Assembly: GCA_000230955.3 (NCBI GenBank)
Contig: CP007060.1
Coordinates: 62,001 to 126,000 of the forward strand
DNA length: 64,000 nucleotides
DNA from: Halobacterium sp. DL1
GTDB lineage: Archaea; Halobacteriota; Halobacteria; Halobacteriales; Halobacteriaceae
Direction of reading: 5' to 3'
Below the pieces are notes generated by a model that was not told the origin of the DNA, did no database searches, and saw only the letters and a list, made by a program, of their open reading frames with translations. The position numbers and the translations under genes were made by a program. Of this stretch, positions 47,286-58,711 are shown one piece after another. Position 1 is the stretch's first letter, and every line of letters begins with the position of its first letter.

Positions 47286-47377
47286 TACTGGTCGCCACTT
47301 GGCGGCGGGTCCGTTATAGGCTTTCTTTTGGCGTTCGACGGGAAGATTGATAATTGCGAGCGGGTAAGCCGGTCCCA

Positions 47378-49546
47378 ATGAGTGGCTCCGGCTCGGACAT
47401 CGTGGATCCGGACACGGCGCGCGCCATCGGCTCCGGCCGGGAAACCGTCGGTGTGCTGTTGCGCTCGATGCAAAAGCGCCTCCAGCACGTCTTCATCGCG
47501 TTCGCTCTCGGTCTGGTCGGCGGCATCTTCGCGATGCGGCTCTACGTCTGGCCCGAGCTCCGCGAAGACCTGCTCGTCGAGAGCGCCCAGATTATCGCCC
47601 AGACGCCGTTCGACGTCATCCTGATGCAGGTGAAGATCGGGCTGTTCACCGGCGTCGCGTTCATCATCCCGGTGGTCCTCTACCACGCCCGCGAACCCCT
47701 GCAGGAGCGGGACATGATCCCCGAACTCCGCATCACGAAGTACCACGTGTTCGGCTTCGTCGTGGTCTTCTTCGGGCTGGCGGCCATCGGCATCTCCTAC
47801 GCCTACTTCCTGTTCTTCCCGCTGATGTTCGACTTCCTGGCGGGCAACGCCGTCGGCTCCGGGCTGGCGCCGAAGTACTCCATCGTGAAGTGGACGGAGT
47901 TCATCTTCTTCCTCGCGCTCTCGTTCGCGCTCGCAGCCCAGCTACCCCTGTTGATGTCGGCGCTCTCGTACTCCGGCATCGTCTCCTACGAGACGTTCCG
48001 CGACAAGTGGAAGTACGCCGTGATGGGCATCTTCGCGTTCGGCGCGATGTTCTCCCCGCCGGACCCGTTCACGCAACTGCTGTGGGCGACGCCCCTGGTG
48101 TTGCTGTACGGGCTGTCGCTGTACCTCTCGAAGATCGTCGTCACGATGAAACGCGGCCGCGAACACGTCGACGTCGGGGGCGTGTTCCGCGAGCGCTGGA
48201 ACCGCATCCTCGGCGTCGCCGTCCTCGGCTTCGGCGCGGGGTACGCGTTCGGCAACTTCGGCGGCGTCGCCGGAATCAACGACGCGCTCGCGTTCGTCGG
48301 GTCGTCCTACCGCCTGATGACCGCGGCGGCGGCGTTCGGCGTCCCGGTCGAGACCAGCTACCTGCTGCTGGGCGCCATCTTCGCCGCGGTCGCGCTGCTC
48401 GCGACGCTGTTCTACTACGTCTACGTCGCCGTCGAGCGCGCCGCGCAGGCGGTCGCCGCGGCGGGTGGCGGTCGACCCACCGACATCGACCTCGACGTCG
48501 TCGACGCGCAGGGCGTCCGCGCCGCACCCCAGGAGAAGTTCGCGTCGATGAGCGAGGACGAGGCGATGGCGACCGCCCAGCGCGCCCTCGACGACGGCGA
48601 CGACGAGAAGGCCCAGGCCATCGTCGACCGCTTCGACCAGGTCCAGGCCGACCTCGAAGAACAGGCTGAAGCGGAGGAGGACGACGACTCGAATACCGTC
48701 CAGAGCACGGCCGCGGGGATGATGGACGCGTTCACCGAGGAGGAGACCACGGAGGACGACATCGGCGGCTACTACTACGACATCCGGTTCATCGTCGGCA
48801 GCCTGCGCTCGCGGGCGTTCCGCATCGTCGGCACGTTCATGGCGCTGCTGGTCACCATCTTCGGCTGGCTCTACTACGGCGGGTTCGCGGAGACTCGGGA
48901 CGACTTCATCGCGCGCATCCCCCAGGACGTCCAGCCGGCGGGCGACGTGGCGTGGCCCATCACCCTCCACCCGGTCGAGGCGCTCGTCTTCCAGGTGAAG
49001 ATCTCGACCGTGCTGGCGGCCATCGGCGTCCTCCCACTCCTCGTCTACTACATGTGGCCGGCGCTCGCGGACCGCGGCCTCGTCACGGGGGACCGGCGCA
49101 CCATCGGCGTGTGGGGCGGCGGCATCGTCGGCGGCCTCGCGCTCGGCAGCTACGTCGGCTACTCGTTCGTGGCGCCGGAGCTCATCTCCTTCCTCGTCTA
49201 CGACGCGCTCCAGTCGGACATGGTCATCAGCTACACCGTCAGCAACTTCGCGTGGATGGTGTTCCTGCTGACGGTGGGTATCGGCCTGCTGGCAGACATC
49301 CCGGTGACGATGGTGCTGTTCCACATCGGCGGCATCGTCTCCTACCGGACGATGCGCGAGCGCTGGCGGGTCCCCGTGCTCTCCATCTTCGCGTTCAGTT
49401 CGCTCGTCACGCCGGACAGCCTCTACACGATGTTCCTCATCGCGCTCCCGATGATACTGATGTACTTCCTCGGGCTCGGCATGCTGTTCGTCGTCACGCT
49501 CGGCGGGCGGCGCGGCGGGCCGCCGACGCCGGCCTCAGAGGCGTAA
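47378..49546 (+). CDS. tatC2: Double-domain TatC (TatCt type)
   Basis: A 722-residue fusion of two TatC domains, known in haloarchaea as TatCt. Domain 1 (residues about 20-250) has LLRSMQKRLQHVFIAFALG and FSPPDPFTQLL. Extra helices and an acidic cytoplasmic linker (DGDDEKAQAIVDRF, EEDDDSNTVQ) follow. Domain 2 (about 480-710) repeats the FVAPELISFLVYDAL and VTPDSLYTMFL elements. It is divergent from tatC with only 92 bp between starts, so the two Tat subunits probably share a promoter region. This matters here because many proteins in the window carry Tat signals. Confidence 0.95.
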   Translation: MSGSGSDIVDPDTARAIGSGRETVGVLLRSMQKRLQHVFIAFALGLVGGIFAMRLYVWPELREDLLVESAQIIAQTPFDVILMQVKIGLFTGVAFIIPVVLYHAREPLQERDMIPELRITKYHVFGFVVVFFGLAAIGISYAYFLFFPLMFDFLAGNAVGSGLAPKYSIVKWTEFIFFLALSFALAAQLPLLMSALSYSGIVSYETFRDKWKYAVMGIFAFGAMFSPPDPFTQLLWATPLVLLYGLSLYLSKIVVTMKRGREHVDVGGVFRERWNRILGVAVLGFGAGYAFGNFGGVAGINDALAFVGSSYRLMTAAAAFGVPVETSYLLLGAIFAAVALLATLFYYVYVAVERAAQAVAAAGGGRPTDIDLDVVDAQGVRAAPQEKFASMSEDEAMATAQRALDDGDDEKAQAIVDRFDQVQADLEEQAEAEEDDDSNTVQSTAAGMMDAFTEEETTEDDIGGYYYDIRFIVGSLRSRAFRIVGTFMALLVTIFGWLYYGGFAETRDDFIARIPQDVQPAGDVAWPITLHPVEALVFQVKISTVLAAIGVLPLLVYYMWPALADRGLVTGDRRTIGVWGGGIVGGLALGSYVGYSFVAPELISFLVYDALQSDMVISYTVSNFAWMVFLLTVGIGLLADIPVTMVLFHIGGIVSYRTMRERWRVPVLSIFAFSSLVTPDSLYTMFLIALPMILMYFLGLGMLFVVTLGGRRGGPPTPASEA

Positions 49547-51175: not shown

Positions 51176-51940
51176 CTACTCTCCGTGCTCGTCGAACGCC
51201 GGGTGTCCCTCGATCCGGTCGGCGGTCTGGTTCCCGGTACCCCAGCTACTGATGGTCTCGGTCTCCACGTCGACGTTCGGGTGAACGAACGTAGTGTCGA
51301 ACGCCGGGAAGTAGACGGCCACGACTCCCGGTTGGCCCCGGACCTGGGGCTGTAGTTTCTTCGCCGTGTCGAAGTCGTCGAGTTCGTGGCGTTCGAACCC
51401 GCCGTCGCTCGCGTTCGTCCAGTAGACGATGTTCGTCTCCGAGACGCCGGTGCTATCGACCTCGAAGTTCCCCTTGCCGTTGAACGTCGCGCCGTCGAGG
51501 CTCGCACACGAGAGTTCGAACTCCCGCGTCGCCCCGGAGATGGATGCGGTCACGCCACTCCCCTCCAGGGTGACGGACACCTCGACGGTCTCGGTCTCAC
51601 CCGGTGTGCAGTCGACGGTTCCGCTGACGACCGCCGTCGTCCCCGGCGATAGCGTGGGCTCGGAGAGGTCCTTGATGGCGAAGGAGTCCGCGTCCACGGT
51701 GACGTCCGTCACCGCGACGTCGCCGGGCAGTCGGTTCGTGACCGTGACGAGGTCCACACGCTGGCCCTCGGGTGCGAGTCGGTCGCTGGCCTGGTAGCCG
51801 ACCATCGCGTTCTCGTCGTCCACCACGGCGACGGAGACGCCGCGCTCGGCGGAGGCGGCGCTGAAGCCGAACGTGCCCAGCAGCAGGCCGGTGCCCGCGA
51901 GGACTGCGAGCGCGATGCTGAGTCCTTTGAGGCTACTCAT
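51176..51940 (-). CDS. Exported protein with SipW-like signal, unknown function
   Basis: A 254-residue predicted secreted protein. The signal peptide (LSIALAVLAGTGLLLGTFGFSAASA in parts) followed by ERGVSVAVVDDENAMVGYQ closely follows the pattern of haloarchaeal SipW-processed proteins. The mature part has beta strands such as VDLVTVTNRLPGDVAVTDV and GTVDCTPGETETVEVSVTL and two cysteines that could form a disulfide. It overlaps the upstream regulator gene by 8 bp. It may be a fibre or adhesion subunit. Confidence 0.65.
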   Translation of the reverse strand: MSSLKGLSIALAVLAGTGLLLGTFGFSAASAERGVSVAVVDDENAMVGYQASDRLAPEGQRVDLVTVTNRLPGDVAVTDVTVDADSFAIKDLSEPTLSPGTTAVVSGTVDCTPGETETVEVSVTLEGSGVTASISGATREFELSCASLDGATFNGKGNFEVDSTGVSETNIVYWTNASDGGFERHELDDFDTAKKLQPQVRGQPGVVAVYFPAFDTTFVHPNVDVETETISSWGTGNQTADRIEGHPAFDEHGE

Positions 51941-52511
51941 GGTCCACTTCGACTGGCTGCTCGCCGCTGCCGAGTTCGCTCTGCCGGGCGTAGTAGCGGT
52001 GGGCGACCGCCGAGACGGCGAACCCGGCGACCGTGGCGACCCCCCACGCGAGGTCCGGGAGCATCGTGAACGGCCACACGTTCACCGCGACGGCGAGCAT
52101 CAGCGTCGCGGCGACGGCCGAGAGCCCCAGGTAGTAGGTGCTCCAGGGGATCTCGTTGCCCTTCACGACGTCCATGTACACCTCTACGTCCTCGAGCGCG
52201 GGCGTCGGTTCGACGAGCCCGCGGTTCTTGTCGAACTGTACGACGTTCGCGTCGTCCATCTTCGGGAGGTGGGACTGCTGGAGCGCCGTGTAGACGCGCT
52301 TGCGCTCGTCGTAGGACACCTTCGCCACCTCGGTGTCGTACTCCCACGCGGCGACCTGCTCGGCGACGTCACCGATCTCGACCGGCGACTCCGTCCCCTT
52401 GAGCACGTGCAGCGCGTACCGGCGTCGTCTGCTCGAGAGCACCTCGAACAGTTCGTCTTCAGTTGGCCCCGAAGACGTATCCGCTCCCCCACTATGTGAT
52501 ACCGATGCCAC
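51933..52511 (-). CDS. Membrane-anchored winged-HTH regulator (DUF7344 type)
   Basis: A 192-residue protein. Residues 15-110 (EDELFEVLSSRRRRYALHVLK, VAAWEYDTEVAKVSYDERKRVYTALQQSHLPKMDDANV, in parts) are a DUF7344-type winged helix. Two transmembrane helices follow (YYLGLSAVAATLMLAVAVNV, LAWGVATVAGFAVSAVA). Such membrane-bound HTH proteins often control neighbouring surface genes. GTG 52511 is preferred to the longer TTG start; TATA-like TTATGATT lies about 30 bp upstream. It overlaps the exported-protein gene at 51933-51940 (ATGAGTAG). Confidence 0.75.
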   Translation of the reverse strand: MASVSHSGGADTSSGPTEDELFEVLSSRRRRYALHVLKGTESPVEIGDVAEQVAAWEYDTEVAKVSYDERKRVYTALQQSHLPKMDDANVVQFDKNRGLVEPTPALEDVEVYMDVVKGNEIPWSTYYLGLSAVAATLMLAVAVNVWPFTMLPDLAWGVATVAGFAVSAVAHRYYARQSELGSGEQPVEVDHE

Positions 52512-52694
52512 AACAACACATGCAATGCGCCCAACCAATCATAAGTGTTGGGGTTCTTTTATTTCTGGCCTGTATGCCCGCTGTCAGACGCTGGGTTTAG
52601 CGAGGGTTTGAACTCCTCTAACGGTATTTTACGGCAATCGGCGAGTTCGGCGCCTGCCTGTAGTTCTCGTGAGGCAGTCGTCGTTAGGCCACTG

Positions 52695-52832
52695 CTATCG
52701 GTCGCACGGGACTGAGTTATGGCCCGGGTGACCAGTTCTCAGGCCCACCCATACGGCCGACTTGCCGTTCTCAGACCCGACCATCCGGTGCTGGCTGACG
52801 GCGCTGGCACAGCCTTCGCATCTGGCCGCCAT
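52695..52832 (-). CDS. Possible 45-residue CxxC microprotein
   Basis: MAARCEGCASAVSQHRMVG and a further 26 residues ending CDR. The start resembles the CEGC zinc protein at 10264, but the second CxxC pair is replaced by a single cysteine, so it is either a divergent member or a decayed copy. It lies inside a 444-bp gap that otherwise contains only promoter-like sequence. Weak evidence. Confidence 0.25.
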   Translation of the reverse strand: MAARCEGCASAVSQHRMVGSENGKSAVWVGLRTGHPGHNSVPCDR

Positions 52833-52844
52833 TTCACGTCCACG

Positions 52845-52859
52845 CTGAACCACGTTCAG
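52845..52859. promoter_or_regulatory. Palindrome upstream of the exported-fibre gene
   Basis: CTGAAC and GTTCAG flank a CAC spacer, a perfect 6-bp inverted repeat about 100 bp before the SipW-type gene at 52956. Candidate operator for the 52.9-58.7 kb genes. Confidence 0.35.
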
Positions 52860-52955
52860 TCGTGTCAATACTACGGGGAAAAGGCTCCTGGGTGTGAGTG
52901 AGCGCTCTCGGGGCGTGCGGTGCCCGCGGGAGTGCACGAACGAGGTAATACGACA

Positions 52956-53486
52956 ATGCAACGACGCAAGTTCATCGCGGGACTCGGATCGCTCGCCGCC
53001 GCTAGCGCGGCTGCAGTTGGTACAGGTGCGTTCAACTTCGCGAACGTCGAACGCAGCGCAAACATGCAAGTTGTTGGCGACAAGAAGGCCTTCCTCGCGC
53101 TCAATGACACGAGCGACTACGCCGTCGGGGGGAACAACGGAACACTCCAGTTAGCTTTCGGTAAGAGTGCCGACGTCACGGGCTCGGGTATCAATCAGGA
53201 ATCGGACTACTCCTTCACCGGCGTCTTCAGCATCACCAACCAGGGGTCGCAGCCTGTTGGCGTCTGGATAGAGGACAACGATGGTGACGACGCTGTGAAC
53301 TGGTACGGCACCGAGTCGGACGACAACTCCGACTTCAGCACCTCGATAGAAGGACCTGGAAACGCGTACCAACTCGACGTCGGGGAGCAGGTTTTCGTCA
53401 ACGTCACGATCCTGACTCGTGGGAAGCCGAAATGGGACGATCTCCCAGATACGGTGAACATCAAGGCCGACGCATCACAGGGCTAG
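52956..53486 (+). CDS. SipW-type exported protein, DUF1102/TasA-like candidate fibre subunit
   Basis: A 176-residue secreted protein. The signal MQRRKFIAGLGSLAAASAAA followed by VGTGAF and ANVER is the pattern of SipW-cleaved substrates in haloarchaea, and the mature part (VGDKKAFLALNDTSDYAVGG, FTGVFSITNQGSQPVGVWIED, GEQVFVNVTILT) is a beta-sandwich typical of DUF1102/TasA-camelysin-like proteins. TasA-type proteins polymerise into extracellular fibres. A dedicated SipW peptidase is encoded 3.3 kb downstream. Confidence 0.72.
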   Translation: MQRRKFIAGLGSLAAASAAAVGTGAFNFANVERSANMQVVGDKKAFLALNDTSDYAVGGNNGTLQLAFGKSADVTGSGINQESDYSFTGVFSITNQGSQPVGVWIEDNDGDDAVNWYGTESDDNSDFSTSIEGPGNAYQLDVGEQVFVNVTILTRGKPKWDDLPDTVNIKADASQG

Positions 53487-53648
53487 CGCCTCCAGACGGA
53501 CCACGAGACGGCTATCTTTTTCCTCGGCCTCGGCGGTGTCGCAGGCGCTGGTACTCCCGATAGCGGAGCCGTCACCATCGCGAACGTCGAGCGGGAAGTC
53601 GGGGTCGTCGGGACAGACGTGAGCGAGGTCGACGGTAACTCCATCTAA
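53487..53648 (+). pseudogene. In-frame open stretch after the fibre-gene stop; possible relic
   Basis: Directly after the TAG of the preceding gene the same frame stays open for 54 codons, reading AIFFLGLGGVAGAGT and GAVTIANVEREVGVVGTDV before TAA. ANVERE recalls the mature start ANVERS of the fibre gene. It has no start codon of its own. It could be a remnant of a duplicated paralogue or part of a longer ancestral gene. Weak. Confidence 0.3.
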
Positions 53649-53822
53649 CCAGGGTCGTCCCAACGGTTCCTAATCCGCTTACGAACATCATTTTCGCGCT
53701 CACTCGCACCGTCTCGGGGCGTACTCAGACACGACTTGACTTCCTTCAGGCACCCCAATACTACCCCTTAGTCTTGTATTGTCCCGAGCAACTGGATGGA
53801 GTTCTTCCGGTAGAGGGCACGC

Positions 53823-55262
53823 GTGATCAGTCGACGCACACTCGCACTCGCTGCGGCGCTCGCGCTCGCGGGGACGCTGGCGTTCCCGTCGGCAGCAGCG
53901 CCGCTGCTCGACGGGCCGAGCGACGACGTGTCGGGAGGCGTGGAGCTGTTACCGGCCGCTGACAGCGAATACGCGACCATCGGGCCGGACGGCAAGCTAG
54001 CGCTGGATCTCACCCCGGGAGAGACCGGGTTAAATCCTGACTCGGTGACGGTGTTCGGGGACGTGTTCTACTTGCGGTACACGGGCGACCGGTACGCAGA
54101 AGTCTGGGTGACGGCGGACTCGGACGAAGTCACCTTCGAGGTAGCTGGACAGCCGGTTGACTCGCGGGCGGAGGGCGTGCGTCTTGGTACCGACGAGGCC
54201 GTACCGGTGAGCGTGCGTGTGAATACCACGGAGGGCGACTTGGATGTCGACGACATCACGGTGCACTCGCGGGTCGCGGAGCCCGAGACGGCCGACGCGA
54301 TGACGGTCGACGACAAGGTCGGGCCGAACGTGCGGACGGTCGCGGCGTCCGAGGGCTCCCGACAGTTCACCGTGTTGCACGCGTCTGCGGGGGAGCCGGT
54401 GGCGCTGGACACGTCGGGGATGAGCGTCGTCGAGACAAACGTGACGCTCGAGGAGCTGTCGGTGACGCGCGCGACCGACGGCGCGCTGTCGGTCGGCGTG
54501 CGACGCGTGGGGGCCTCGTCGGCGGGGCCGCTGCCCGCGTCAGGAGCCGACGCACTCGGCGCCGTCGAGGTGACGACCAAGAGCAGCGAGCGGGAGATTC
54601 GACGCGCGACGTTCCGGTTCAGCGTCGCCGAGGACTACCTCGACGCGGTCGACACGGACGCCGGGGACCTGACGCTGTACCGGCACAGCGACGGCGAGTG
54701 GAGCGAAGTCGACGCGACGGTGGTTGGGGAGCGCGCCGGTCGCCTGTTCGTCGCGGCGGAGGCGGACGGCTTCTCGACGTTCGTGCTCGCGGCGGAGCGG
54801 CCCGCGATCGGCGTCCAGTCCGCGTCCGTCGACCCCGCGACGGCGGCCGCCGACGAACCGGTCACCGTGACCGGCGAGGTCGAGAACGCGGGCGGCGCGG
54901 CGGGCGAACGGACTGTCGCGCTCACGCTCGACGGTCGCGTGGTGGCCGAACAGGCGGTCGCCCTCGACGCGGGCGAATCGACGACAGTGACGTTCACGAC
55001 CACACCGTCTCCGGGCGAGTACGACGTCGCTGTGGGGGGGACGGACGCGGGCAGCCTCGTGGTCGAAGCTGGGAGTGGGGACGGGACCACCGCCGCCAGT
55101 GGGTCTGGGGACGAGTCTGACGCGGCCGCGACCGACGGTGCCGACGAGACGCCGGTGGCGGAGCCGGCGGGCATCGACCTCCAGGCGGTCGCGGGCGTCT
55201 CGGTGATGCTCGCGCTCGTCGTCGCCACGCTCGCGCTGGTGCGGCGGCTCCCGCGGGAGTGA
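53823..55262 (+). CDS. Cell-surface protein with PGF-pre-PGF and CARDB-like domains
   Basis: A 479-residue surface protein. GTG start, then a signal peptide (ISRRTLALAAALALAGTLAF). After a region resembling the DUF1102 exported type (LDLTPGETGLNPDSVTVFGDVFYL in parts), residues about 250-320 (FRFSVAEDYLDAV, LTLYRHSDGEWSEV, FVAAEADGFSTFVLA) form a PGF-pre-PGF domain, and 330-430 a CARDB-like beta domain (ASVDPATAAADEPVTVTGEV). A low-complexity linker and a single C-terminal transmembrane helix with Arg stop anchor it. Confidence 0.75.
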   Translation: MISRRTLALAAALALAGTLAFPSAAAPLLDGPSDDVSGGVELLPAADSEYATIGPDGKLALDLTPGETGLNPDSVTVFGDVFYLRYTGDRYAEVWVTADSDEVTFEVAGQPVDSRAEGVRLGTDEAVPVSVRVNTTEGDLDVDDITVHSRVAEPETADAMTVDDKVGPNVRTVAASEGSRQFTVLHASAGEPVALDTSGMSVVETNVTLEELSVTRATDGALSVGVRRVGASSAGPLPASGADALGAVEVTTKSSEREIRRATFRFSVAEDYLDAVDTDAGDLTLYRHSDGEWSEVDATVVGERAGRLFVAAEADGFSTFVLAAERPAIGVQSASVDPATAAADEPVTVTGEVENAGGAAGERTVALTLDGRVVAEQAVALDAGESTTVTFTTTPSPGEYDVAVGGTDAGSLVVEAGSGDGTTAASGSGDESDAAATDGADETPVAEPAGIDLQAVAGVSVMLALVVATLALVRRLPRE

Positions 55263-55308
55263 CGTGACAGTGGGGTGGACTTTTGGCGGCGGGACGACCA
55301 CTCCGCCC

Positions 55309-56172
55309 ATGGACAGCGAGTCGGGCCGTCGACCGCCGTTCCGGGCGGCCCTGCGACGCGCCGTGCGATTGCGGGACGTCGCGCTCCTGCTGCTCGTGCC
55401 CGGGGTGCTGGTCGGCGTCTTCGCGCTCCCGCTGGACGTGCGACGGTCGCTGGCGTTCCGGTACACGGACCCGACGCTCGCGACGGCGTACACCGCGCAC
55501 TTCGTCCACCTGGAGAGCTCACACCTGCTTGCGAACGTCCTGGCGTTCCTCTTGCTCGCGGGCGTCGGCTATCTGCTCGCGACTCTCGCGGGCCGCCGCC
55601 AGCTGTTCGGCACGGCGACCGCCACCTACCTGCTCGCGGTGCCGTTCGCGCTGTCGGGACTCAACCTCGCGGTGCCGCGGAACGCCGTCGGCTACGGGTT
55701 CTCGGGGGTGAACCTCGCGTTCGCGGGACTGCTTCCGCTGTTGCTCGTCGCCTACGCGCGGCGGAGACTCGACGCCCGCGTCCGTCTGCGACACGCGCCC
55801 GGCCTGTTCTTCGCCGCGCTCGCCGTCGTCGCGGTGGTGGCACTCCCCTGGTCGCCGGTGAGTGTGGGCGTTGCCGGGGTGGCCGCAGTCGCGGCGGTGG
55901 CGTACGCCGTGCCGCTCGTCCGGAGCGACGCGCCGCGGGCGTCGACCGGCGCGTCGACGGCGGGGTGGCTCGACCTGCTCGTCGTCGGTCTGGTGTTGTA
56001 CCTGGCGACGCCGTTCGTCGCGTTTCCAGCGTCGCCTGGCGTCGAGGGGGGCGTGTTGAACCTGTACGCCCACCTGCTCGGGTTCTGTCTCGCGTTCGTC
56101 GCGCCGTACGTCGCTCTGGAACTCGGTCTGTTCGAAGCGACGCCGGCGCGCGCGGTGGACGCCGCGGACTGA
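55309..56172 (+). CDS. Rhomboid-family intramembrane serine protease
   Basis: A 287-residue protein with six or more transmembrane helices. The rhomboid active-site set is present: HLLAN at His72-Asn76 (oxyanion), GFSG with Ser132 as nucleophile, and AHLLG with His255 as base. It would cleave other membrane proteins within the bilayer. It lies between the PGF-pre-PGF surface protein and the signal peptidase, so surface proteins of this locus are natural candidate substrates. ATG 55309 is preferred to an earlier GTG. Confidence 0.8.
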   Translation: MDSESGRRPPFRAALRRAVRLRDVALLLLVPGVLVGVFALPLDVRRSLAFRYTDPTLATAYTAHFVHLESSHLLANVLAFLLLAGVGYLLATLAGRRQLFGTATATYLLAVPFALSGLNLAVPRNAVGYGFSGVNLAFAGLLPLLLVAYARRRLDARVRLRHAPGLFFAALAVVAVVALPWSPVSVGVAGVAAVAAVAYAVPLVRSDAPRASTGASTAGWLDLLVVGLVLYLATPFVAFPASPGVEGGVLNLYAHLLGFCLAFVAPYVALELGLFEATPARAVDAAD

Positions 56173-56223
56173 CGCCGTCCAAGGATTTATGCCTCGCTGA
56201 TACGTTCACCCGTCCGACACTCG

Positions 56224-57384
56224 ATGGATTCGCGGCGCATCCTCACGCTCGCCGGCGAGGCGCTCCTCGTCGGGATGGTGCTCGCACTCGTCGCCGGACA
56301 GGTGCTGGGCTACCCGGTGTTGCTCGGCTACGTCGAGACCGGGAGCATGTCGCCGACGATGGAGCCGGGCGACGGCTTCGTCGCCGTCCCCACCGCTGTC
56401 GACGGCGACATCGAGGAGGGCGACGTCGTGGTGTTCCGCGCCAAGGAGCTCCACGGCGGCGGCCTGACCACCCACCGGGTCGTGGGGGAGACGGAACGGG
56501 GATTCGTCACGCGGGGGGACGCGAACCCGTTCACCGACCAGGACGGCGACGAGCCACCGGTGAAGCGCGCGCAGGTCGTCGCGAAGGCGCTGGCGGTGAA
56601 CGGCGAGGTGGTCGTGATTCCGAACCTCGGTACCGCCGTGATGGGCGTCCAGAACGCGGTGACCGAGACGCAGCGCACTCTCGCGAGTCTCACCGGCACG
56701 CGCTCGCTGATGGGCACCCAGGGGCTCACGTACCTCCTGTTCGCGCTGTCGGCCCTGCTCTACGTCGTCGACTTGCTCGTGAGCAGCGGCCGGGAGCGCG
56801 ACAGAGAACGCTCGCGCTCTCGCGACCAGGGTATCTCACCGGGCGTCGTCGTCGCCGTGCTCGCGGGCCTGCTCGTCGTCTCCGCGACCGCGGCGATGGT
56901 CGTGCCGGCCGGCACCGAGGAGTACGGCGTCGTCAGCGCAGAGTTCGACTCCGAGAGCCCGACCACCATTCGGGCGGGCGAGTCCTCGACGTTCACGTAC
57001 CGCCTCCCCAACGACGGCCTGGTGCCGGTCGTGACCTACCTCGAACCCGCCAGCGGCGGCGTCGCTGTCGAACCGGCGCGGCAGTACGTCGGCGGGCGGT
57101 CCTCGGGGAGCGCCCAGGTGACGCTGTCGGCGCCGCCCGAGACCGGCTACTATCGGCGGTACGTGGCCGAACATCGCTACCTGGCAGTGCTCCCGACGTC
57201 GCTGCTCGACGGGCTCTACCGGCTCCACCCGTGGCTCCCCATCGTCGCCATCGACGCGGTGCTCGCGGGCGGCATCGCGCTCCTCGGCCTGGGGGTGTTG
57301 CGCGGGCGCCGCGTCAGGCTCCGGCGCCGGCAGTCCAGACACGACCGGTCGCTGCTGGGCCGCATCCGTCGCCGGTTCCGGTGA
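56224..57384 (+). CDS. SipW-type signal peptidase I with C-terminal beta domain
   Basis: A 386-residue membrane protease. Residues 1-175 are an archaeal S26B signal peptidase with catalytic Ser41 (GSMSPTMEPGD), His84 (THRVVGE) and Asp99 (RGDAN), the Ser-His form of SipW/Sec11. After a second transmembrane region (GISPGVVVAVLAGLLVV) comes an extracellular beta domain (SAEFDSESPTTIRAGE, SGSAQVTLSAPPETGYYRRY) and a third helix with an Arg-rich tail. The extra domain is unusual and may recruit the local SipW-type substrates. Confidence 0.88.
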   Translation: MDSRRILTLAGEALLVGMVLALVAGQVLGYPVLLGYVETGSMSPTMEPGDGFVAVPTAVDGDIEEGDVVVFRAKELHGGGLTTHRVVGETERGFVTRGDANPFTDQDGDEPPVKRAQVVAKALAVNGEVVVIPNLGTAVMGVQNAVTETQRTLASLTGTRSLMGTQGLTYLLFALSALLYVVDLLVSSGRERDRERSRSRDQGISPGVVVAVLAGLLVVSATAAMVVPAGTEEYGVVSAEFDSESPTTIRAGESSTFTYRLPNDGLVPVVTYLEPASGGVAVEPARQYVGGRSSGSAQVTLSAPPETGYYRRYVAEHRYLAVLPTSLLDGLYRLHPWLPIVAIDAVLAGGIALLGLGVLRGRRVRLRRRQSRHDRSLLGRIRRRFR

Positions 57385-57433
57385 CCCGACCACCGGCAGT
57401 CGGTTCAGGTCACCAACAGTTCTTTGGGCCCGG

Positions 57434-58711
57434 ATGACACAGGCGTTGGGCATGGCAGGGGACAGTCGCTGGCTGGGGATTCGGTCGTTCGCCGCGTCGT
57501 GGCTCCCGGTTCTCGTGGTCGCGCTGGCCGTCTGCGCGATGGCCGGCGGCTACGCCACGGCCACCGCCTACGCCGCGCCCGGGACCACCGAGGAGCGCCA
57601 GACGGTGACGAACTGGGCGGTCACCGCCGACTACAGCCACTCGGCGACCGTCGTGGCCGAGAACCCCGTCTTCGAGGAGGGGACCGAACTCCGGGGGCGC
57701 TCGACGTACTTCACCACCGTCACGCCGGTGCTCGACGGGACGTTCGCGGCGACCTACCGCGACACGGACGCCGACTCCGGGTCGCTGTCCGTCTCGATGA
57801 ACGCCACGCTCGTCGCGCGCTCGGTGGGCGAGGAGGGCGCGGTGTTCTGGACCGAGCGCACGCCGCTGGCCGCGAACGAGACCACGCTCGACAGGGGCGA
57901 GACCGCGACCGTGGACTTCGCCGTGAACGCCAGCCGAGTGAACGACCGCGTCGCAGCGATACAGGAGTCGCTGGGCGAGACGCCGGGCAAGATAGAGACG
58001 GCGGTCGTGGTGGCCGTGAACGCCAGCGCGGCCGGCGGTGGTCCGGGCAAGTCGCTCACGCACAGCCTCCCGCTGTCCATCGGTAGCACGAGTTACACGG
58101 TGGGTCAGGCGGAGTCGACCCAGGCGGCCGCGACTACCACCCAGGTCGTCGCGGTGCCGCGGACGTACGGACCGCTGTGGACGGTCGGCGGACCGCTGCT
58201 ACTCCTCGCCGGGGTAGTCGGCCTGGCGGCGCTCGCCCTCACCCACCGCCGCGCCGCGCTCGAACTGACCGACGTCGAGCGGGAGTACCTCGCGTACCGC
58301 GACGACCGTGCCGAGTTCGACGAGTGGGTCGTCCGCGCGCGCCTCCCCGAGTCAGTGCTCGACCGGGAGCGGACGGAGGCAGAGTCCCTGGCCGACGTCG
58401 TCGACTTCGCCATCGACTCCGACGTCGGCGTCGTCGAGGACACCCGGACCGGGTCGTTCTTCGCGGTCACCCCGGACCTGCTCCTCAGCTTCGACCCGCC
58501 CGAACTCGTCGACGACCCGTCACCGCTCCCGGCCGACGCCGCGGCCGAGTTCGACCTGCGGGGGGTACTCGGTCTGGCCGAGACGGCCGGAGGAACCGGA
58601 GAGGACGCTCCAACCGCGGATGCCGGCGACGACGCGGGCGGCGTCGACGGTTCGAGCGCCGACGCGAGCGAGGCAGCGGAGCGCGCCGGCGTGGTCGAAC
58701 CCGAGGACTGA
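57434..58711 (+). CDS. DUF5305-type membrane protein
   Basis: A 425-residue protein: N-terminal signal-anchor helix (VLVVALAVCAMAGGYATATAYA in parts), an extracellular beta-rich domain (ERQTVTNWAVTADYSHSATVV; GRSTYFTTVTPVLDGTFAATYR), a transmembrane helix (LWTVGGPLLLLAGVVGLAALAL) and a cytoplasmic alpha/beta domain. This layout is typical of haloarchaeal DUF5305 proteins, which commonly accompany a SipW signal peptidase. A short acidic tail ends the protein. Function unknown; probably part of the export system. Confidence 0.78.
   Translation: MTQALGMAGDSRWLGIRSFAASWLPVLVVALAVCAMAGGYATATAYAAPGTTEERQTVTNWAVTADYSHSATVVAENPVFEEGTELRGRSTYFTTVTPVLDGTFAATYRDTDADSGSLSVSMNATLVARSVGEEGAVFWTERTPLAANETTLDRGETATVDFAVNASRVNDRVAAIQESLGETPGKIETAVVVAVNASAAGGGPGKSLTHSLPLSIGSTSYTVGQAESTQAAATTTQVVAVPRTYGPLWTVGGPLLLLAGVVGLAALALTHRRAALELTDVEREYLAYRDDRAEFDEWVVRARLPESVLDRERTEAESLADVVDFAIDSDVGVVEDTRTGSFFAVTPDLLLSFDPPELVDDPSPLPADAAAEFDLRGVLGLAETAGGTGEDAPTADAGDDAGGVDGSSADASEAAERAGVVEPED

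Follow-up and report, generated by a model that had tools for sequence, protein, structure and literature searches.

Haloarchaeal Tat-fimbriae (tafi; Tat, twin-arginine translocation) have reportedly been studied by Galeva et al. (2025, iScience 28:111793). A paper citing the primary work describes tafi, in the passage concerned, as Tat-dependent thin appendages (PMC12687288), and our use of the name rests on that passage, on the curated NCBIfam models (TafA, TafC, TafE and TafF) and on the PDB title of entry 9p0a, 'Structure of Natrinema sp. J7-2 Tafi pilus'. Known members of the TasA and bundling-pilus group form donor-strand fibres (PMC9674648). Dedicated pairs of a rhomboid-type enzyme, rhombosortase, and an adjacent target are found in bacteria too (PMC3237569). 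For archaeal rhomboids, earlier substrate candidates rest on proteomics (PMC9263693), and a 2025 study of the Haloferax rhomboids names finding natural substrates as future work (PMC11985538). Here we describe a gene cluster at positions 51176-58711 of a 64-kb stretch of Halobacterium sp. DL1 (contig CP007060.1; the whole stretch analysed is called the window), which very probably encodes a tafi-like fibre. We propose, with a probability of roughly 60%, that the protein encoded at 53823-55262 is the base of this fibre, that the adjoining rhomboid cuts its C-terminal tail, and that a DUF7344 protein regulates the cluster. The fibre type is not new, being already known as tafi with curated models and a solved pilus; new here is the link between the rhomboid and the tail of the fimbrial anchor.

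The candidate major fimbrial subunit is a 176-residue protein encoded on the plus strand at 52956-53486, whose true start is the ATG at 52956 (MQRRKFIAG...) and not the GTG at 52920. Families were assigned throughout by Pfam and NCBIfam/TIGR profile scores, in bits, read against the cut-off of each family. The subunit, product of the only DUF1102 gene in the host genome, scores 31.4 bits against DUF1102 (Pfam gathering cut-off 22.2), and it matches TafE over nearly its full length at 58.8 bits (NCBIfam cut-off 155) and TafA at 26.9 bits (cut-off 190). Searching solved structures with a profile of 31 subunits returned one good match, 9p0a (E 2.8e-32), which the window subunit also matched as a single sequence (E 6.9e-10). 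The AlphaFold2 model of the subunit is confident over most of the mature domain: it reaches 79-96 in blocks from residue 81 onwards, is weak at 71-80 and falls below 50 in the signal region. With this model the first Foldseek hit was 9p0a; next came 7pnb, the Sulfolobus thread filament, while 7ueg, the Pyrobaculum bundling pili, stood at rank 5. Because the Foldseek E-values are modest (4.6e-3 at best), the fold evidence backs the sequence evidence and does not stand alone. Arginines R3 and R4 of MQRRKFIAG are invariant in 31/31 subunit sequences, forming a twin-arginine signature within the signal MQRRKFIAGLG, and the hydropathy of the window signal peptide is low, as expected of Tat substrates. 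By this signature, the subunit is exported via the Tat pathway.

The original prediction, made from the letters of the window, had proposed that seven or more neighbouring genes belong to one secretion system forming an extracellular fibre or matrix. The seven genes are open reading frames at the coordinates it gave, and their families were matched as DUF7344 helix-turn-helix, TafC-like, DUF1102, PGF-pre-PGF/CARDB, rhomboid, SipW-type peptidase and DUF5305. It was to fall if the predicted folds were unrelated to TasA/camelysin and the families did not co-occur elsewhere. The fold matches, 9p0a foremost with the Sulfolobus and Pyrobaculum filaments behind it, are related, and a search of haloarchaeal genomes found the gene families together widely, so the fibre reading withstands its own refutation test. 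An extracellular fibre system of the TasA/ABP type is supported, with the corrections that this fibre is already known as tafi and that the subunit carries a Tat signature, which the prediction did not mention.

The window proteins match the TafA, TafC and TafE models, all far below the NCBIfam cut-offs, and the scan found no TafA above cut-off in the host genome. TafA exceeds its cut-off in 24 of 392 haloarchaeal genomes. These clusters, in Haloarcula-type genomes, contain TafE, TafC, TafF and the same signal peptidase, mostly together with DUF5305 and DUF7344. Among 26 family genomes DUF5305 accompanies the TafE-like gene in 16/16 carriers, and is found in 2/10 genomes that lack it. Since the partner families are the same and the matches lie far below cut-off, the window cluster is, judged by its profile matches, a divergent relative of tafi that stands outside the curated core.

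Immediately relevant to the base of the fibre is the protein encoded at 53823-55262 (plus strand), which the original prediction called a PGF-pre-PGF/CARDB surface protein. Both domains are present (Pfam, 38.1 bits with cut-off 28 and 38.2 bits with cut-off 22.7, respectively), but they are preceded by a signal peptide and a TafA/E-like domain at about residues 29-156, and followed by a C-terminal tail, EPAGID-transmembrane helix-RRLPRE. After removal of the signal, the N-terminal domain of the anchor family aligns with the subunits (hhalign probability 99.0, E 3e-18) and with the N-terminal domain of TafF (probability 99.1), indicating that the protein is a membrane-anchored fimbrial subunit in its own right. 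The PGF-pre-PGF and CARDB domains gave at most weak hhalign matches to subunits or TafF. Subunit, TafC and anchor were told apart by separate hidden Markov models (HMMs) and by searches with signal peptides removed. The AlphaFold2 model of the whole anchor has a pLDDT (predicted local distance difference test) of 85; Foldseek with this model returned generic beta-sandwich/FnIII and CARDB folds only, and the NCBIfam TafF model gave no match to the window anchor even at E 5. Two related anchors (L192, L034) are partly matched by TafF, at 79-87 bits. On this homology the protein joins a fimbrial subunit to two more domains and a helix at the C-terminus, which makes it a TafF-like base, and it probably serves as the membrane anchor of the fibre.

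The tail of the anchor has three parts: a motif E-x-[small]-[small]-[F/I], a transmembrane helix, and a terminal RR. Homologous anchors end in one of three ways, namely a single helix with this motif, a PGF-CTERM, or a multi-helix region as in Haloarcula-type TafF. This is one anchor protein family with interchangeable C-termini, of which the first is linked to a rhomboid. The rhomboid gene of the window (55264-56172, plus strand) starts 1 nucleotide after the anchor gene. Its product scores 17.9 bits in Pfam, below the cut-off of 22.6, and possesses the expected catalytic positions, S147 in GxSG, H270 in the sixth transmembrane segment and H82/H87/N91 in the second; across 23 aligned sequences H82, H87, S147 and H270 are invariant and N91 is nearly so.

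Anchor and rhomboid travel together among relatives. The cluster contains a rhomboid in 10/16 family genomes with TafE-like genes. Over 56 named loci the rhomboid lies directly 3' of the anchor wherever both are complete, with the exception of L055, where the anchor is inverted and duplicated. It is missing from clusters without such an anchor, for example in Haloarcula salina, Halorussus, Halomicroarcula and Halomarina, and is also missing where the anchor ends in PGF-CTERM (L034 and L179). In Halospeciosus flavus (L044 / L055) the cluster appears to be partly inverted and the anchor duplicated; the complete anchor now points away from the rhomboid, next to which a fragment bearing that tail is left. 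With anchors from all loci clustered at 50% identity, the motif occurs in 14/18 anchors followed by a rhomboid and in 1/15 others (Fisher 6e-5, an indicative value), and several formal exceptions bear close variants such as EAGGFG and ELAGF.

A tail HMM searched over the 26 whole genomes gave 13 matches at E<1e-3, all but one in anchors of tafi-like clusters; one genome, G023, gives two matches, its anchor being duplicated. The model (A2) was built partly from these loci, and the matches in G008, G016, G011, G009, G012 and G002 are independent of it. The exception (G019:C1:167556) is a non-fimbrial PGF-pre-PGF protein that also stands beside a rhomboid. Its tail was part of the model, so that the match depends on the model, but its position next to a rhomboid does not. 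A tail of the same type adjoining a rhomboid in a non-fimbrial protein is our strongest hint of a real pair. At L197:11982-14549 a rhomboid directly follows the gene of a non-fimbrial PGF-pre-PGF protein with an EQSGF-helix-RR tail, in the genome whose fimbrial anchor has a PGF-CTERM.

Several points weigh against this interpretation. The window subunit lies under every NCBIfam Taf cut-off. The motif expression was written post hoc, after the tails had been inspected, and the loci share an ancestry for which the counts are uncorrected, so that the p values are only indicative. A looser comparison (rhomboid within 7 kb, anchors clustered at 60%) gave 22/28 versus 6/16 (p 0.0099), against a background of 6-8% for the motif in shuffled or other segments. 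Two anchors of the same genus, L041 and L043, retain EPAGF with no rhomboid in the cluster, and several Haloarcula-type TafF proteins have an EPSGF-like motif before their multi-helix C-terminus, some with no rhomboid nearby. With 4 label changes on the tree, a single clade for all taf-linked rhomboids is not supported. We dropped a strict rule that rhomboids occur only with single-helix tails, given that rhomboids are also found near multi-helix TafF clusters and some of those TafF proteins have the same juxtamembrane motif. Cleavage of the anchor is a step that we infer from gene pairing and tail conservation. Balancing these points, we lean slightly towards the rhomboid cutting the 53823 anchor. 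The original prediction that the rhomboid trims a membrane-anchored member becomes more specific, since the rhomboid gene tracks both the anchor and its C-terminal tail, and it is still a proposal.

Could the rhomboid of a tafi-like cluster act elsewhere, its adjacency reflecting shared operon descent? Its targets might then be orphan membrane subunits (as quality control), DUF5305, the signal peptidase, or glycosylation enzymes as proposed for Haloferax volcanii RhoII, whose proposed substrates are PibD and Agl15 (PMC9263693). Linked genes do travel together, taf-linked rhomboids cluster strongly on the tree, and where rhomboids occur near multi-helix TafF clusters DUF5305 stands in between. 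However, clusters whose anchor is absent or ends in PGF-CTERM keep the signal peptidase and DUF5305 but have no rhomboid, and a protein outside the fimbrial families with the same tail adjoins a rhomboid. We hold this explanation to be rather unlikely.

The second alternative concerns the fibre itself: the proteins might form a cell-associated coat or adhesive layer, the single subunit being the vestige of a degraded fimbria cluster. The host genome keeps one small subunit versus two to five in most relatives, and at 53520-53649 (plus strand; FFLGLGGVAGAG...VTIANVEREVGVVGTD) lies a probable decayed second subunit gene, where relatives keep a TafE-like gene; its HMM match is weak (7.9 bits, E 0.0022 among 13 fragments). 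Against this, the remaining frames are all intact with conserved residues, a single plus-strand subunit also occurs in some other clusters (L064, L080), and two conserved upstream boxes are retained. These boxes are copies of the 9-mer CAATACTAC on the plus strand, at 52866-52874, 90 nucleotides 5' of the subunit ATG, and at 53756-53764, 67 nucleotides 5' of the anchor-rhomboid-peptidase operon. They are the only two copies in the window, and none arose in 100 shuffles. Across nine related clusters the copies are almost all found 5' of a subunit or anchor gene, often preceded by a TGAAC...TTCAG-like element; a few more copies elsewhere in the host genome indicate that the box is not specific to the cluster. 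We regard it as a candidate promoter or DUF7344 operator. Since both carry it upstream, the box links the rhomboid operon with the fibre subunit. We consider a coat or vestige improbable.

Least credible is processing of the tail by archaeosortase A (ArtA) as a variant PGF-CTERM with the rhomboid unrelated to it. In its favour, ArtA is encoded in the host genome, the anchor contains a PGF-pre-PGF domain, and two of its homologues terminate in a PGF-CTERM (L034, which passes the TIGR04126 cut-off at 28.4 bits, and L179, which falls just short). Against it, TIGR04126 matched neither the window anchor nor the other rhomboid-adjacent anchors tested even at E 5, leaving such processing unsupported, and the window tail lacks the PGF whose permutation, according to the title of Abdul-Halim et al. 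as cited in PMC11985538, prevents ArtA from processing the Haloferax S-layer protein.

The remaining genes complete the arrangement. Anchor, rhomboid, signal peptidase and DUF5305 genes are separated by 1, 51 and 49 nucleotides, and because the gaps are so small they look like one operon. Tens of haloarchaeal genomes show the same order of genes, so the grouping is not due to chance. Scans for bacterial promoters and terminators gave nothing useful. The signal peptidase (56224-57384, plus strand) scores 56.6 bits against the archaeal type TIGR02228 (cut-off 51.85), and 70/70 sequences share its Ser41, His84 and Asp99, making it of the SipW (Ser-His-Asp) and not the Ser-Lys type; against the Bacillus SipW equivalog it scores 28.5 bits and does not reach the cut-off of 190. 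By hydropathy, two additional transmembrane segments flank an extracytoplasmic stretch of about 110 residues. The DUF5305 protein (57434-58711, plus strand; Pfam 153.3 bits, cut-off 29) has two transmembrane segments, an extracytoplasmic domain and a cytoplasmic C-terminal domain, and is 45-54% identical to 12/13 aligned family relatives and 34% identical to the remaining one. No homology to the subunits was found for the extra peptidase domain or the DUF5305 ectodomain; a weak resemblance of the former to CARDB (probability 49) was all that appeared. Relatives of DUF5305, often multicopy, occur in 320/392 haloarchaeal genomes and thus extend well past the clusters with curated TafA.

On the minus strand, the DUF7344 helix-turn-helix regulator (51933-52538; Pfam 107.7 bits, cut-off 27.8) has a hydrophobic C-terminal segment, and this divergent partner is conserved among relatives. 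The exported TafC-like protein of 254 residues (51176-51940) has a Sec-type signal with a GFSAASAERGVSV processing region and matches the N-terminal part of TafC (NCBIfam, 53.8 bits, cut-off 410); its N-terminal domain is related to fimbrial subunits (hhalign probability 93.8). A TatC-TatC fusion gene of the Tat translocase lies at 47354-49546, 1.6 kb from the cluster. In G009 and G012 (L043, L041) the cluster is flanked by these TatC and Vut_1 neighbours as well, while other relatives have it elsewhere.

Building on the gene content, homology, conservation and gene pairing observed directly, we propose the following sequence of events. The folded subunit would leave through the Tat pore and lose its signal peptide to the SipW-type peptidase, and in Halobacterium sp. 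DL1 the subunits would then polymerise, with donor-strand exchange, known from related pili, as the probable mechanism. The base would be formed by the 53823 protein: at the fibre's proximal end its N-terminal fimbrial domain would accept or donate a strand, and its single C-terminal helix would anchor the fibre in the membrane. Next, the adjacent rhomboid would recognise the motif beside the membrane (EPAGI in this protein, E-x-small-G-F/I more generally) and cut the helix, whereupon the fibre may be released, or the base moved to another anchor as in sortase-like systems. DUF7344 may regulate the cluster via sites near the shared box. This reading accounts for a puzzling mix of domains in one operon and would extend the still young model of the tafi fimbria by a base in the membrane and an enzyme for processing. 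It also suggests a possible natural substrate for an archaeal rhomboid, the tafi membrane-anchor protein, comparative genomics here putting forward a specific pair of protease and substrate together with a motif for recognition and, in fibre anchoring, a readout.

Compared with tafi (TafA-TafF), the window cluster is alike in its gene families, divergent layout, Tat signals and signal peptidase/DUF5305/DUF7344 partners; its subunit is homologous to the solved pilus and a TafF-like anchor is present. It differs in that all its proteins score below the NCBIfam Taf cut-offs, in having one subunit and not TafA plus TafE, in an anchor with PGF-pre-PGF and CARDB domains and a single-helix tail in place of a multi-helix C-terminus, and in the rhomboid within its operon. 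With TasA/TapA/SipW of Bacillus subtilis and the archaeal bundling pili it shares beta-sandwich subunits, a short N-terminal signal and a Ser-His-Asp peptidase, whereas its Tat export signature, dedicated membrane anchor and rhomboid set it apart, and there is no close sequence match to TasA or camelysin. The PGF-CTERM/archaeosortase A system resembles it in the PGF-pre-PGF domain, the tripartite tail and the PGF-CTERM endings of some homologous anchors, but the window anchor has no PGF-CTERM match and a rhomboid, not ArtA, lies next door. In the rhombosortase/GlyGly-CTERM system (PMC3237569), too, a rhomboid gene adjoins one target, whose tail consists of a motif, a helix and basic residues. 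Here, however, the motif is E-x-x-G-F/I and not GlyGly, and the enzyme has Leu/Met four residues after the catalytic Ser instead of the rhombosortase His (SGVNL versus SGMLH); membership was rejected on this missing signature His and on a TIGR03902 score of 22.2 bits against a cut-off of 84. More generally, and tentatively, haloarchaea may have a further C-terminal processing besides archaeosortase, in which rhomboids recognise E-x-x-G-F/I juxtamembrane tails and are dedicated to the basal subunit of the Tat-fimbria, in certain genomes also to other surface proteins, controlling fibre release or re-anchoring in a manner like that of bacterial rhombosortase but outside its family.

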